Positions 7,191-14,910 of a DNA stretch of 64,000 nt are shown here, piece after piece. The first letter of the stretch is position 1; each line of letters begins with the position of its first letter. Both the position numbers and the translations under genes were made by a program. This DNA is from an uncultured Prochlorococcus sp. GTDB taxonomy: Bacteria; Cyanobacteriota; Cyanobacteriia; PCC-6307; Cyanobiaceae. Location: the NCBI GenBank assembly GCA_902625845.1, contig CACOCT010000003.1, positions 1-64,000 of the forward strand, in the 5' to 3' direction. Under the pieces are notes generated by a model. The model saw only the letters and a list, made by a program, of their open reading frames with translations, did no database searches and had not been told where the DNA came from.

Positions 7191-8378
7191 CTAAGAACTA
7201 GATAAATTTCTTCCCTTCCAAGTCCAACCTTTGCCTGTATATGTTTTATAAATTGAAAGTAAGCTTATGTATAAAACAACTATTCCACCTAAGCCACTTA
7301 AAAACCAATATTTTTCTGGAATATTGTACTGAGCTTTTAACCAATACCTTTTGCATATGTAAGTAAAAATTGACATAAATGAAATAAAACCTACATTTAA
7401 AAAACTTGTATTTTGGTTTTTCAAAACAATAATTATTGATATGCTAAAAAGTAACCAAGGCATACTATAAGTTAAAAAAACATAAACAGATGCTGATATT
7501 GACTTGAGGAAATTTTTTTCTAAACCTAAAAACCAATTTTTGCTCCATCCTTCGATTAATGTATTGAAATCTTTATACATATTTAAAGAGATATCTTTAA
7601 TTGCTATGAGAAAATTTAATTTTAAATTACTATCTTTAATCTTTTTTGCTAACGCAAGATCTTCAACAACTTCATCATGAGTACCCTCATGTCCTTTGAT
7701 AAATTTATATGAATCGCTTTTGAAAAGCATAAAAGGGCCTGCAGCAAAGGCAATATCACTATCCTTGTTGTTGGTATCAGAGATGGGGAAACCTATCATT
7801 AATAAACTAGTCATGATTGGTTGAACCATCCACTCTGCTAAGCAGTTACAGTTTACTTTTGGGGCTAGTGATAATAAATCTATACTTTCTTTAGATGCTT
7901 TCGCTAATGCTTTAAGAATACAATTTTCACCAACTACAACATCTGCATCAATAAATAGTATCCATTCAGAATTGATTTCTTTTGAACCAACATAACATGG
8001 CCAATTCTTTCCTACCCATCTTTTATCAGTTGGTCTTGGACCTGATGAAATTATTTCTAATTCTTCAGGATTCTTAGAGACTTGATTTTTAAAATTTTCA
8101 ACTTTTGAAAAGGTTTTATCATTACTCGAATCATCCACTACTAAAGTCTTAAATTGAATACTAGGTCTTGATATCTGATTTAATGCATTTAAACAGTTAA
8201 TTATATTTATTTCTTCGTTATAAGCAGGAATTATGACGGTAAGACTTGTATCTATTGGTTCTTTAGAACAATTAACTTGTAGAAAAGGTGCTTTTTTAAA
8301 GATATAAATTTCTATTAAAATAGAACTAATAACTAGTGCAAAAGTTAAGATTGAAATTAGTAATAAAACTATATTCAT
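7191..8378 (-). CDS. family 2 glycosyltransferase, membrane anchored (HpnB/CruG-like)
   Basis: LTVIIPAYNEEINI, LVVDDSSNDKT, FIDADVVV and C-terminal TM segments. Confidence 0.8.
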   Translation of the reverse strand: MNIVLLLISILTFALVISSILIEIYIFKKAPFLQVNCSKEPIDTSLTVIIPAYNEEINIINCLNALNQISRPSIQFKTLVVDDSSNDKTFSKVENFKNQVSKNPEELEIISSGPRPTDKRWVGKNWPCYVGSKEINSEWILFIDADVVVGENCILKALAKASKESIDLLSLAPKVNCNCLAEWMVQPIMTSLLMIGFPISDTNNKDSDIAFAAGPFMLFKSDSYKFIKGHEGTHDEVVEDLALAKKIKDSNLKLNFLIAIKDISLNMYKDFNTLIEGWSKNWFLGLEKNFLKSISASVYVFLTYSMPWLLFSISIIIVLKNQNTSFLNVGFISFMSIFTYICKRYWLKAQYNIPEKYWFLSGLGGIVVLYISLLSIYKTYTGKGWTWKGRNLSSS

Positions 8379-9560: not shown

Positions 9561-9938
9561 ATGAACATTTCCCCTTTAATTCATTTTTCTATTATTTCAA
9601 TTGGATCATTGCTAGGCGCAAATTTAAGATATATCTTAATAACTAGATTTTGTTCAATAAAGTTAAGTAAGAGTGTAAGATTGCTACTCGTAAATTTATT
9701 TGCTTCAGTAATTTTGGGTACCTCATTATCATTAAATAATGATAGTGATTTAACAATTTATAGAGAATTAATTATTTTATTTATTATTGGATTCTCTGGT
9801 AGCTTAAGTACTTTTTCCTCATTTATTAATGAATTATTCAAATTATCGATTAAAAGGAAATATAAAGATATTTCAATCATTATTTTTTTATCTATATTTT
9901 TAGGTTTGTTATCAATTTCTCTTGGATTATTATTGTGA
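9561..9938 (+). CDS. crcB: CrcB/Fluc-family fluoride channel subunit 1
   Basis: GSLLGANLRYIL ... FIIGFSGSLSTFSSFINEL, four TM. Confidence 0.85.
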   Translation: MNISPLIHFSIISIGSLLGANLRYILITRFCSIKLSKSVRLLLVNLFASVILGTSLSLNNDSDLTIYRELIILFIIGFSGSLSTFSSFINELFKLSIKRKYKDISIIIFLSIFLGLLSISLGLLL

Positions 9939-9946
9939 ATTTTTAG

Positions 9947-10285
9947 ATGTTTGAGTTTTTTATTATTTCTATAAGTTCTATTTTAGGTTCTTTAATTAGA
10001 TGGAAGATTGGCAATATTTTTTTGGTAAATGTTCTAGGATGCTTCATCTTTGGATTTATAAATAATCTTCAAGTTTCAAAAAAAATCAAGTTATTTCTCT
10101 GCTTTAGTTTTTGTGGATCTCTAACTACTTTTAGTGGATGGATTTTAGATTTATTAAATATTTTGAATAAAGGTTTATATTTCTTATTTTTTTTAAGGGT
10201 AAGTTTGTTTTTAGTTATGGGATACTTTGCAATGTATTTTGGATACTCATTATCAGATAAGCTAAAAAAATTAAAAAAAATGTAA
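9947..10285 (+). CDS. crcB: CrcB/Fluc-family fluoride channel subunit 2
   Basis: GSLIRWKIGN..LVNVLGCFIFGF...FCGSLTTFSGWILDL, four TM; 8 bp downstream of subunit 1. Confidence 0.85.
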   Translation: MFEFFIISISSILGSLIRWKIGNIFLVNVLGCFIFGFINNLQVSKKIKLFLCFSFCGSLTTFSGWILDLLNILNKGLYFLFFLRVSLFLVMGYFAMYFGYSLSDKLKKLKKM

Positions 10286-11015: not shown

Positions 11016-12068
11016 ATGGCAATAGCAATGACTAAGGGCTACAGCGAGCAGACAGCTGGTGCAAAGCTCTGTATTGATCTTGCAAGTGACTGGGGTGCAG
11101 AATGTATCTCTGACCTAAATATAAGAGAAAATGTATTTTTAATGGATTATGGTGCTGCGGATGGTGGCACGGCTTCTGACTTTTGGGGAAAAATAATAAA
11201 TGATATACAAGAAAAGAATCAATCTACTGAGATTACTTTGATAGGGAATGATCTTTATTCAAATGACAATCAGGCTTTAATTAATAATTTATCAATCCAA
11301 TCTATTAATAATCAATTAGTTAAGACTTTTTTATGCGCTGGTAGTTTTTATGATCAGCTTGTTCCTTCTGAATTTATTGATTTTGGATTCTCAGCTACTG
11401 CAATGCATTGGCTCAATAAAAAGGTTGAAAATCTTAACGATCATACTCATGTACTAGCTTCAAACAATCAAACTGCAAGAAATGATTTCTTGAAGCAAGC
11501 ATTATTTGACTGGAATCAAATATTAGATATTAGAAGTAAAGAGCTTAAAATTGGAGGTAAATTACTTACCGTTAATTTATCTCGAGATAATGAAAATAGA
11601 TATTTAGGAAATAATGGCGGGCAGACAGTGAATGTTCATGATGAAATTCATTCTATTTGGAAAGAGTTGTTAGAAGAAAAACTTATTACAGAAGATGAGT
11701 ATCAGAAAGGGACCATCCAGAATTTTTATAAATCCCCTGAAGAATTTATTTCACCTTTAATTAATAAGGATTCTTCTGCATATAAAAAAGGTTTAAGACT
11801 AATTAAGGAAAGAACCGTATATGTAGATTGCCCATATAAGAAAAAGTGGAAGGAAAATAAAAAAACTGAGGAGTTTGCAATTGGATTAATGGAAACGATA
11901 AGAAGCTGGAGTAGACATAGTTTCATTTCTGCTTTGGATAAAAATAACCATACAAACTTAAATCCAGTTGATATACTTTTTAATCGTTTAACAAAACGAA
12001 TAAGTAACGATCCTGAAAATTGGAGTCTCGATTATGTAGAACATCACCTAATGATGGAGAGAGTTTAA
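11016..12068 (+). CDS. SABATH-type SAM-dependent carboxyl methyltransferase
   Basis: MTKGYSEQTAGAKLCID..., DYGAADGGTASDFW SAM loop, SFYDQLVPSEFIDFGFSATAMHWL; characteristic of plant salicylate/gibberellin carboxyl methyltransferase relatives. Confidence 0.85.
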   Translation: MAIAMTKGYSEQTAGAKLCIDLASDWGAECISDLNIRENVFLMDYGAADGGTASDFWGKIINDIQEKNQSTEITLIGNDLYSNDNQALINNLSIQSINNQLVKTFLCAGSFYDQLVPSEFIDFGFSATAMHWLNKKVENLNDHTHVLASNNQTARNDFLKQALFDWNQILDIRSKELKIGGKLLTVNLSRDNENRYLGNNGGQTVNVHDEIHSIWKELLEEKLITEDEYQKGTIQNFYKSPEEFISPLINKDSSAYKKGLRLIKERTVYVDCPYKKKWKENKKTEEFAIGLMETIRSWSRHSFISALDKNNHTNLNPVDILFNRLTKRISNDPENWSLDYVEHHLMMERV

Positions 12069-13117
12069 TGATTAATTTACAGACTCAACAGAAAAGAGAA
12101 GTGGGTATACTTGCCGAATATATCAGTGAGGAATTATCTATTTTTATAGTGGCAGAAAATAATCTTGAAGATCATCCAGCTAATGGAGGATTAAGACTTC
12201 TGAATTATGAAACAGATATGGAATGTATTCAGGATGGTTTTAAATTGGCAAATCTTATGAAGAGTAAGCATAGTATTTACTCTACAGGTTTTTCGGGTGG
12301 AAAAGTTGTTGCTAGATCTGCGGATATTTCTTCGGTCAAAGATAAACTTATATCTATAACATCTAAACTTCTTGAAAATCTTCAGGGGAAGATGATTACA
12401 GGATGTGATTTGAATACGAATATAAATGATATGGAGAAATTATTCAAACTAACTCCTCATGTTTTAGCAGCTATTAATAGTGGGGTTGATGCGAGTACCG
12501 CAACTGGTATGGGTGTTATTGGAGCATTTGAAGCATTTCAGAAATGTTTTTCGCAAGATTTTTCCAATGGAGTTCTAGTCCATGGATGCGGATCGGTTGG
12601 ACGAATTGTTGCCTTAGAACTTGTTAAAAGAAAAATAAAAACTTTTGTAGTTGATATTGATACTGAAAAAACTAATATACCTGGAGTAATATCACTTGGA
12701 AATGATAAGAATTGGTATCGAAAGAATTTTGATGTAATATTTCCATGCTCTATTTCAGGTCTTATAAGTACAAATATTGCTCAATTCCTTCTTAAAACCA
12801 AAGCGATTATTTCAGCCGCTAATGGCCCTTTTAGTAATGATGTAATTCCTGCAAAACTTACAGATTCAAATGTTGTTATAATTCCTGATCCACTTGTTAA
12901 TGCAGGAGCAGTAATTGCTGACTCTATTGAGAAATATGCACCTGATGCATGGACTAGAACCTCTCCTGAAAAAGTTTATAATTTCGTGCAAGAGGAAGTT
13001 AGAAAGAAATGTTTTACCTATTTATCTCTTGAACAAAGTGGTTTAGAATCTAAAGAAATTTTAAGTCTAATGCAAAATGATAGACAAGAAATAATAGGTA
13101 AATCATTTTTCAATTGA
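12068..13117 (+). CDS. Leu/Glu/Phe/Val dehydrogenase-like protein
   Basis: NPANGGLR-like segment (HPANGGLRLLNYETD), GVLVHGCGSVGRIVALEL Rossmann motif; ORF track opens at 12020, but the ATG overlapping the upstream stop (TAATG, 12068) is the more likely start. Confidence 0.8.
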   Translation: MINLQTQQKREVGILAEYISEELSIFIVAENNLEDHPANGGLRLLNYETDMECIQDGFKLANLMKSKHSIYSTGFSGGKVVARSADISSVKDKLISITSKLLENLQGKMITGCDLNTNINDMEKLFKLTPHVLAAINSGVDASTATGMGVIGAFEAFQKCFSQDFSNGVLVHGCGSVGRIVALELVKRKIKTFVVDIDTEKTNIPGVISLGNDKNWYRKNFDVIFPCSISGLISTNIAQFLLKTKAIISAANGPFSNDVIPAKLTDSNVVIIPDPLVNAGAVIADSIEKYAPDAWTRTSPEKVYNFVQEEVRKKCFTYLSLEQSGLESKEILSLMQNDRQEIIGKSFFN

Positions 13118-14304
13118 TGAATAATCTTAGTATCCCAAAACATGTAGATATAGCAATTATTGGTGGTGGGATGGCTGGCCTCAGTGCAGCAGCCGCACTA
13201 AGTGAAATGGGAATAAAAAATATTGCTTTGTTTGAAGCTCAAAAACTTGCTAACGCTAATGGAAGTAGTTTCGGTGAGTCAAGAATGTATAGAGAAATGT
13301 ACTCAGATCCTGTTCTTTGTAAACTTGCAAAAGAATCAAATAAATTATGGTCAATGCAAGAATCATTATCAAATAAACCTCTCAGGAAGGAGCATGGTTT
13401 ATTGTTTTATGGGGAATCTTGGGATGAAGAAACCATTGAAGGCTCTATTCCTGGAGCTCAAAAAGTCATGGATGAACAGAACATTCCATATGAGTTTCTC
13501 TCTTCAGAAAAGATCTCAAAAAGATTTCCTATTAAACCTAAAGACCATTTTGTAGGTCTATTTGAACCAAGCGCAGGTGCAATTTTAAGTGATAAAGCTA
13601 TCGATAATTGGATACAAATTATAAAAAGAAATGGTAATCAAATATTTGAAGATTGCAGAATAAATAAAATTAATCAAAAAGATAATCAACTTGAAATTAT
13701 TGAAAATAAATCTGTTGCTTTCGATCAATTAATTGTAGCTTCTGGTATGTGGACTAACGAGCTATTGGAAAATATAGGATTAAAGCTTGACATTAAAATA
13801 TGGCCAATGCTTTGGGCTCATTATTTGGTAGAAGAAAAATTTATAAATAGTTATCCTCAATGGTTTTGTTTTCAAAAATCAAAGAATGATGATGGCGGGC
13901 TATATTATGGCTTTCCTGTATTAAGTAGAAATAAAAATAATATTCCAAGAATAAAAGTTGGGATAGACTGGGCTCCACCAAATATTATTGGAATAGATAA
14001 CAAGTCAATGGTAAATCCTTTTATGGATCCTTTAAAACAAATGCTGGATAATTTTATTTTAAATAATATAAATGGCGTAATAGCCTGTGATGAAACTTTT
14101 GTAAGCCCTTATACAATGACGAGCGATGTGAATTTTATTCTTGATAAACCTAAGCCAAATATTACTGTCTTTTCAGGAGGTTCAGGTCAATCATTCAAAT
14201 TTGCACCACTAATAGGTAAATGTCTAGCTGAAAAATCTTTAAATAAAAATTGTAGTTTCGATATAAGTTGTTGGGAAATTAATAGAGTATTGACAAAAAC
14301 ATAA
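13117..14304 (+). CDS. FAD-dependent amine oxidoreductase, sarcosine oxidase / N-methyltryptophan oxidase-like (DAO family)
   Basis: VDIAIIGGGMAGLSAAAAL dinucleotide motif, FGESRMYREMY, GGSGQSFKFAPLIGK; coupled start (TGATG). Confidence 0.85.
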   Translation: MNNLSIPKHVDIAIIGGGMAGLSAAAALSEMGIKNIALFEAQKLANANGSSFGESRMYREMYSDPVLCKLAKESNKLWSMQESLSNKPLRKEHGLLFYGESWDEETIEGSIPGAQKVMDEQNIPYEFLSSEKISKRFPIKPKDHFVGLFEPSAGAILSDKAIDNWIQIIKRNGNQIFEDCRINKINQKDNQLEIIENKSVAFDQLIVASGMWTNELLENIGLKLDIKIWPMLWAHYLVEEKFINSYPQWFCFQKSKNDDGGLYYGFPVLSRNKNNIPRIKVGIDWAPPNIIGIDNKSMVNPFMDPLKQMLDNFILNNINGVIACDETFVSPYTMTSDVNFILDKPKPNITVFSGGSGQSFKFAPLIGKCLAEKSLNKNCSFDISCWEINRVLTKT

Positions 14305-14379
14305 TTTTGTAGATTGTTAGAAAAATATAAATCTTTATCTTATTAAAATTTGAAGAAATAATATAATACTTCTAAGAAA

Positions 14380-14417
14380 AAAAAGAGGATTGATTTTATC
14401 AGTCCTCTTTTTTGGAA
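14380..14417 (+). terminator. intrinsic terminator-like hairpin downstream of the three-gene operon
   Basis: aaaaaagaggattgattttatcagtcctctttttt. Confidence 0.7.
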
Positions 14418-14910
14418 TCAATTTGAAATATTAATTGCTTATTAAAAGCGTTGCTTTTCTTTTTAAATTTCACTTAATCATGATCTTTAAAAGCAAATTC
14501 ATAGGGAAAATCTCGATTGTAATTTGTCCTGATATCGTTAGTAATTATAAAACGAAGTCTTATCAGACTAATTGATGAACTTTAGTTATCAAGATATTCC
14601 CTTTCTCGGGAAGACACTAAATTTCAGGCGGACTTTCAATCATAAAAAGATTGCCTCCAACTCAATAAATACAATTTAATACTTTGCATATTATTTAGTA
14701 AATCAGTGTTTATGCTGATTTACATCAAACACCTTTCTGTTTGAGAATTATATTGGTCTGCTTAATTTATTCCAGAGAATATTAAAAATTTATTTTTATT
14801 AAGGAAACTTTTTCTAAGGTTTGTAACTTTATATATTTTCCAATTCATTTTTGAAATGCTTATTTTATGTATTTATTATTAAAGTATTGTGATAAATATT
14901 CAATAATTAA

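Follow-up and report, generated by a model that had tools for sequence, protein, structure and literature searches.

A three-gene operon of marine Synechococcus and some Prochlorococcus is a candidate pathway from lysine to homarine

Three genes, here termed A, B, and C, lie in tandem in the window, the 64,000-nucleotide stretch of an uncultured Prochlorococcus sp. contig (CACOCT010000003.1, positions 1 to 64,000) that was analyzed (Table 1). The host is a Prochlorococcus genome of 1.18 Mb (66% complete), whose nearest named relative, as judged by gene A, is HNLC1 (97% identity). All three genes are intact open reading frames, with the overlapping stop and start codons described by an initial sequence-only reading of this DNA; the ATG of gene B (12068-12070) shares one base with the TAA of gene A, and the ATG of gene C (13117) shares one base with the TGA of gene B. 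The terminator which that reading placed at ~14.4 kb corresponds to a strong hairpin (16 bp, -19.1 kcal/mol) and its U-run, as good a fold being found in 0 of 200 shuffled sequences; the hairpin was absent from the output of a simple terminator scan. Values of dN/dS ranged from 0.06 to 0.24 across the three genes, indicating their maintenance by purifying selection. Just 3' of the terminator is a Yfr8/9 cyanobacterial small RNA (Rfam RF02360, 65 bits; 14462-14666, forward strand), and two small membrane proteins, the first of them a CrcB fluoride channel, are encoded upstream of the operon (9561-10285, forward strand).

Table 1. Coordinates and predicted functions of the operon features in the window
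Feature	Position	Strand	Length	Family and proposed function
Gene A	11016-12068	+	350 aa	SABATH-fold SAM methyltransferase (PF03492); proposed picolinate N-methyltransferase (homarine synthase)
Gene B	12068-13117	+	349 aa	Leu/Phe/Trp-dehydrogenase-like (PF00208); proposed L-lysine 2-dehydrogenase yielding piperideine-2-carboxylate
Gene C	13117-14304	+	395 aa	NikD/sarcosine-oxidase-like FAD oxidase (PF01266); proposed piperideine-2-carboxylate oxidase yielding picolinate
Intrinsic terminator	14379-14413	+		Hairpin and U-run at the operon end; fold z -4.6

Separation of the three genes in other genomes, or loss of catalytic residues, had been named at the outset as grounds for abandoning a joint function. 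The catalytic residues are present, and the tightly spaced A-B-C order recurs across over 20 loci, among which amino-acid identity falls as low as ~43-56%, with gene ends that overlap or nearly touch in most loci examined. Carriers include HNLC1, HNLC2, MIT9401, MIT9201, several uncultured Prochlorococcus, and marine Synechococcus-like genomes of the same family. Gene A was detected in 14 of 266 Prochlorococcus genomes (6 of 87 near-complete ones), and gene C was detected in 28 of 34 genomes of a Synechococcus-like genus (17 of 19 near-complete). Two samples, of 386 and 194 cyanobacterial genomes, yielded neither a full-length gene A nor a gene B of the trio type outside the picocyanobacterial family; in the sampled genomes, the only match to gene A beyond picocyanobacteria was a 58-residue fragment (genome G710, E 1.4e-4), and the next relatives of gene B outside the group scored ~119 bits, as compared to more than 620 inside. 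In the loci examined, the conserved gene order was seen in marine Synechococcus and in a small share of Prochlorococcus. Searches with gene C returned nothing from viral contigs and, from plasmids, only relatives below 60% identity (best ~26%), several of which are annotated SolA. In two Synechococcus-like genomes, L034 (7596-8626) and G242 (C1:267203-268230), gene A is split into two frames beside a gene C that looks intact, as does gene B in L034, which is one of the loci with the conserved order; these are either natural A-defective strains or assembly errors.

Several other genes were observed around these loci. The Synechococcus-like genomes L036, L037, and L039 contain another SABATH-like gene, unrelated to the first (20-26% identity), with no B or C adjoining. 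A glycosyltransferase family 2 gene in the window (7191-8378, reverse strand), nearest to HpnB/CruG at a score below cut-off, has strong matches (59-89% identity) in all four trio-bearing Prochlorococcus genomes tested and weak matches, to other glycosyltransferases, in all five trio-free ones; in every lineage inspected, no more than a few kb separate it from the trio. In MIT9401, an autotransporter of 1202 aa that combines DUF285 repeats and Ig-like domains is encoded near the trio (L006, 1879-5487, reverse strand).

Gene A scored above the cut-off of the SABATH family to which it had been assigned at first reading (Methyltransf_7; E 7e-24, 85 bits, cut-off 29.8, residues 36-347). It has the fold family and SAM-site motifs in common with SABATH methyltransferases (salicylate, loganate, and caffeine enzymes, and the mycobacterial fatty acid O-methyltransferase 5f2k, its best solved relative by sequence), and the core motifs D44, D79-L80, S110-F111, and W132 are kept in all full-length copies, but it is distant from these enzymes in sequence. 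Plant SABATH carboxyl methyltransferases have an N-terminal Gln directed at the carboxylate of the substrate; as judged by a single pairwise alignment with 8wwq, gene A appears to have an alanine there instead (A16, kept in all full-length copies). Caffeine-group N-methyltransferases are among the SABATH relatives matched by gene A, so N-methylation is within reach of this enzyme. The nearest solved relative methylates a carboxylate, which counts against that reading. Both methyl-ester and N-methyl formation had been put forward initially; an N-methyl betaine appears the more likely product and a methyl ester the less likely. To our knowledge, picolinate as a substrate, and its N-methylation, would be new for the SABATH family.

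The description of gene B as leucine dehydrogenase (LeuDH)-like is borne out by a score above the Pfam cut-off (ELFV dehydrogenase; 52 bits, cut-off 23.4) and by retention of the catalytic residues, K67, K79, and D114 being invariant and the carboxylate-binding N252 kept. In structural comparison, the AlphaFold model of gene B (pLDDT 80.5) aligns with phenylalanine dehydrogenase at Z 35, and the NAD-binding GxGxxG motif reads GCGSVG at residues 173-178. Fold and catalytic residues are common to gene B and the leucine, phenylalanine, and tryptophan (ScyB) dehydrogenases, from which gene B differs in its side-chain pocket, where N39 and D285 are invariant. Side-chain specificity of leucine dehydrogenase is associated with L40, A113, V291, and V294 (PMC2723916; PMC8766677). 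Two of these positions, 40 and 294, are described as essential to specificity for glutamate and as altered in leucine dehydrogenase (PMC2723916). The corresponding gene B residues are N39, G112, V282, and D285 in 24 of 24 copies, and the hydrophobic side-chain pocket of leucine dehydrogenase is not present. The predicted pocket is larger, polar, and acidic and would suit a cationic side chain. Asn and Asp at specificity positions 40 and 294 suggest a different, probably cationic, substrate, which we infer to be lysine. Gene B most likely runs oxidatively as a lysine dehydrogenase, contrary to the reductive amination initially suggested. The nearest named family, tryptophan dehydrogenase ScyB (NCBIfam NF035922), was rejected as a functional assignment on account of a score far below cut-off (96.7 bits, cut-off 600) and the acidic pocket.

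Gene C belongs to the flavoprotein superfamily of monomeric sarcosine oxidase and SolA, with which it shares a fold (DAO family; 132 bits, cut-off 27.9), and a search with the single sequence returned sarcosine oxidase as the first PDB match. A profile of the gene C family (11 members), however, places NikD first (148.5 bits), followed by sarcosine oxidase (131) and N-methyltryptophan oxidase (111). For one Synechococcus gene C, identity is 31-33% with NikD and 25% with sarcosine oxidase; for the window's own copy, the values are 26% and 25%. Gene C residues E108, Y264, R59, and K361, invariant in 24 copies, align in all three alignment modes with NikD Glu101, Tyr258, Arg53, and Lys358, which we take to be active-site (Glu101, Tyr258) and carboxylate-binding (Arg53, Lys358) residues; a literature search for publications naming NikD residues found none. 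In sarcosine oxidase an Ala takes the place of Glu101, and gene C is set apart from monomeric sarcosine oxidase and SolA by its NikD-like Glu108 and by a Ser in place of the flavin Cys. The covalent-flavin Cys of sarcosine oxidase and NikD is absent from gene C: every copy has a serine (S330) where MSOX has Cys315, with NikD Cys321 close by in the alignment. Because of this replacement, gene C probably holds its flavin noncovalently, which counts against the proposed oxidase role. The pairing of NikD Asp276 with gene C D284 falls in an ambiguous loop alignment that varies with method and is not settled by MAFFT. The structural model (pLDDT 71) compares slightly better with sarcosine oxidases than with NikD, superpositions of the latter giving an rmsd near 10.5 that probably reflects domain rotation; the predicted fold is of the sarcosine oxidase kind and too uncertain to choose a subfamily. 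Sarcosine and N-methyltryptophan oxidation were rejected as roles, with scores below the family cut-offs (sarcosine oxidase TIGR01377, 149 bits, cut-off 480; SolA NCBIfam NF008425, 184 bits, cut-off 257) and NikD nearer. By sequence comparison, the imino-acid aromatase NikD is thus a nearer relative of gene C than the sarcosine oxidase named at first reading.

Directly and closely 3' of gene C, and in the same direction, the Synechococcus loci inspected have a fourth gene, which encodes a BCCT betaine/carnitine/choline transporter (PF02028, 421 bits, cut-off 27); in one Synechococcus genome, which we take to be WH7803, A, B, C, and BCCT are consecutive. A BCCT homologue is encoded on another contig of the window's genome (~59-63% identity, 418 bits). 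BCCT was found in 6 of the 266 Prochlorococcus genomes, and 4 of these 6 are among the 14 with the trio (hypergeometric P 7e-5, relatedness ignored); the other two, one of them 96% complete, have no detected trio. Ten trio-bearing Prochlorococcus genomes have no detected BCCT, and the transporter is thus not strictly required. In Synechococcus it would presumably recover or exchange homarine.

Homarine (N-methylpicolinic acid) is among the most abundant small nitrogen compounds of seawater plankton; diatoms also make it, possibly by another route. A predicted lysine dehydrogenase, imino-acid aromatase, methyltransferase, and betaine transporter together lead to the prediction of a pyridine betaine, homarine, and the A-B-C operon is judged likely to direct its biosynthesis. 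Gene B would oxidatively deaminate L-lysine at the alpha carbon with NAD+ as acceptor, and the product, 2-keto-6-aminohexanoate, would close spontaneously to delta-1-piperideine-2-carboxylate (P2C). Gene C, as a NikD-kind FAD oxidase, would then remove four electrons from P2C to form aromatic picolinate, and gene A would move the methyl group of SAM to the pyridine nitrogen of picolinate, yielding the betaine. The P2C intermediate, N- over O-methylation, and homarine as product are all inferred from the gene sequences. The three family assignments and the operon hold, as does the original suggestion of an undescribed route acting on an amino or imino acid by N-methylation and oxidation.

A literature search found no publication on homarine biosynthesis genes or on SABATH enzymes in Prochlorococcus, and one elsewhere could exist. 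Among the cyanobacteria of PMC8269262, homarine is reported in both Synechococcus strains tested (up to 400 mM in WH8102 and 4-5 mM in WH7803), and its biosynthesis and degradation pathways are described as uncharacterized as of 2021. The presence of all four genes in the presumed WH7803 genome agrees with this homarine content. The same paper names quinolinate as the homarine precursor, against a lysine route. The ~100-fold difference in homarine between WH8102 and WH7803 is left unexplained by operon presence and also counts against the proposal.

Other readings of the trio differ in the final methylation, in the substrate, or in the direction of the pathway. Were the first two steps the same and gene A to methylate the carboxylate of picolinate or P2C, the product would be a volatile or signaling methyl ester. 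Such an outcome would accord with the SABATH membership of gene A and with a nearest solved member that is a carboxyl methyltransferase, but is improbable given the apparent loss of the carboxylate-facing Gln noted above (A16 in all full-length copies; one pairwise alignment, with the role of the Gln presumed from plant enzymes), the link of a betaine transporter to the trio, and the millimolar homarine that Synechococcus holds (PMC8269262). Alternatively, the chemistry could be similar and the substrate another: ornithine, converted via pyrroline-2-carboxylate to a methylated pyrrole-2-carboxylate, or tryptophan or phenylalanine, converted to a methylated betaine or imino acid. The gene B pocket does not argue against ornithine, and aromatic substrates would be in keeping with ScyB as the nearest named family of gene B (97 bits), the best fit of its model to phenylalanine dehydrogenase, and the resemblance of gene C to N-methyltryptophan oxidase (184 bits, NCBIfam). 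However, the ScyB and N-methyltryptophan oxidase scores fall well short of the respective cut-offs (600 and 257), D285 and N39 are ill-suited to an aromatic side chain, and NikD exceeds N-methyltryptophan oxidase by 37 bits for gene C; another substrate is considered unlikely, if less so than a methyl ester.

The operon might also be catabolic, with imported N-methylated amino acids or betaines demethylated by gene C, the product deaminated by gene B, and gene A contributing a side activity. Membership of gene C in the sarcosine/N-methyl amino acid oxidase superfamily, and a BCCT transporter, usually an uptake system, 3' of the trio in Synechococcus, would fit such a role. It would be futile, though, for a demethylation operon to begin with a methyltransferase that consumes SAM, and gene C bears NikD-type residues; we regard catabolism as doubtful, on a par with ester formation.

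It seems reasonably probable that the operon is the picocyanobacterial homarine pathway, that it comprises three new predicted activities (a LeuDH-derived NAD lysine 2-dehydrogenase, a P2C aromatase that resembles NikD but binds its flavin noncovalently, and a SABATH enzyme that N-methylates a pyridine carboxylate), and that it marks the homarine-making lineages of Prochlorococcus.

If correct, the homarine assignment would provide a marker operon through which metagenomes and transcriptomes could show who makes homarine, when, and where, and a biosynthetic counterpart to the homarine catabolic pathway reported in 2026 (as cited in PMC13390433). The SABATH family would gain an N-methyltransferase with a pyridine carboxylate substrate, and the leucine dehydrogenase family a lysine-specific member.

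The proposed pathway is reminiscent of the nikkomycin NikC/NikD branch of Streptomyces, in which lysine undergoes 2-transamination and a sarcosine-oxidase-like enzyme converts P2C to picolinate (PMC4021061), i.e., via the same intermediates as proposed for the operon. The combination of genes had at first been considered undescribed and unrecognized. This no longer applies to its first half, which resembles the nikkomycin sequence from lysine through P2C to picolinate, and still applies to the substitution of a dehydrogenase and the addition of a methyltransferase. In contrast to the nikkomycin branch, the first step would be carried out by a dehydrogenase rather than an aminotransferase, and picolinate would be methylated rather than activated as a CoA ester; NikD holds its flavin by a Cys that gene C is without. 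The chemistry of the first half is known from nikkomycin; what appears new to us is the set of enzymes, the methylation, and the host organism.
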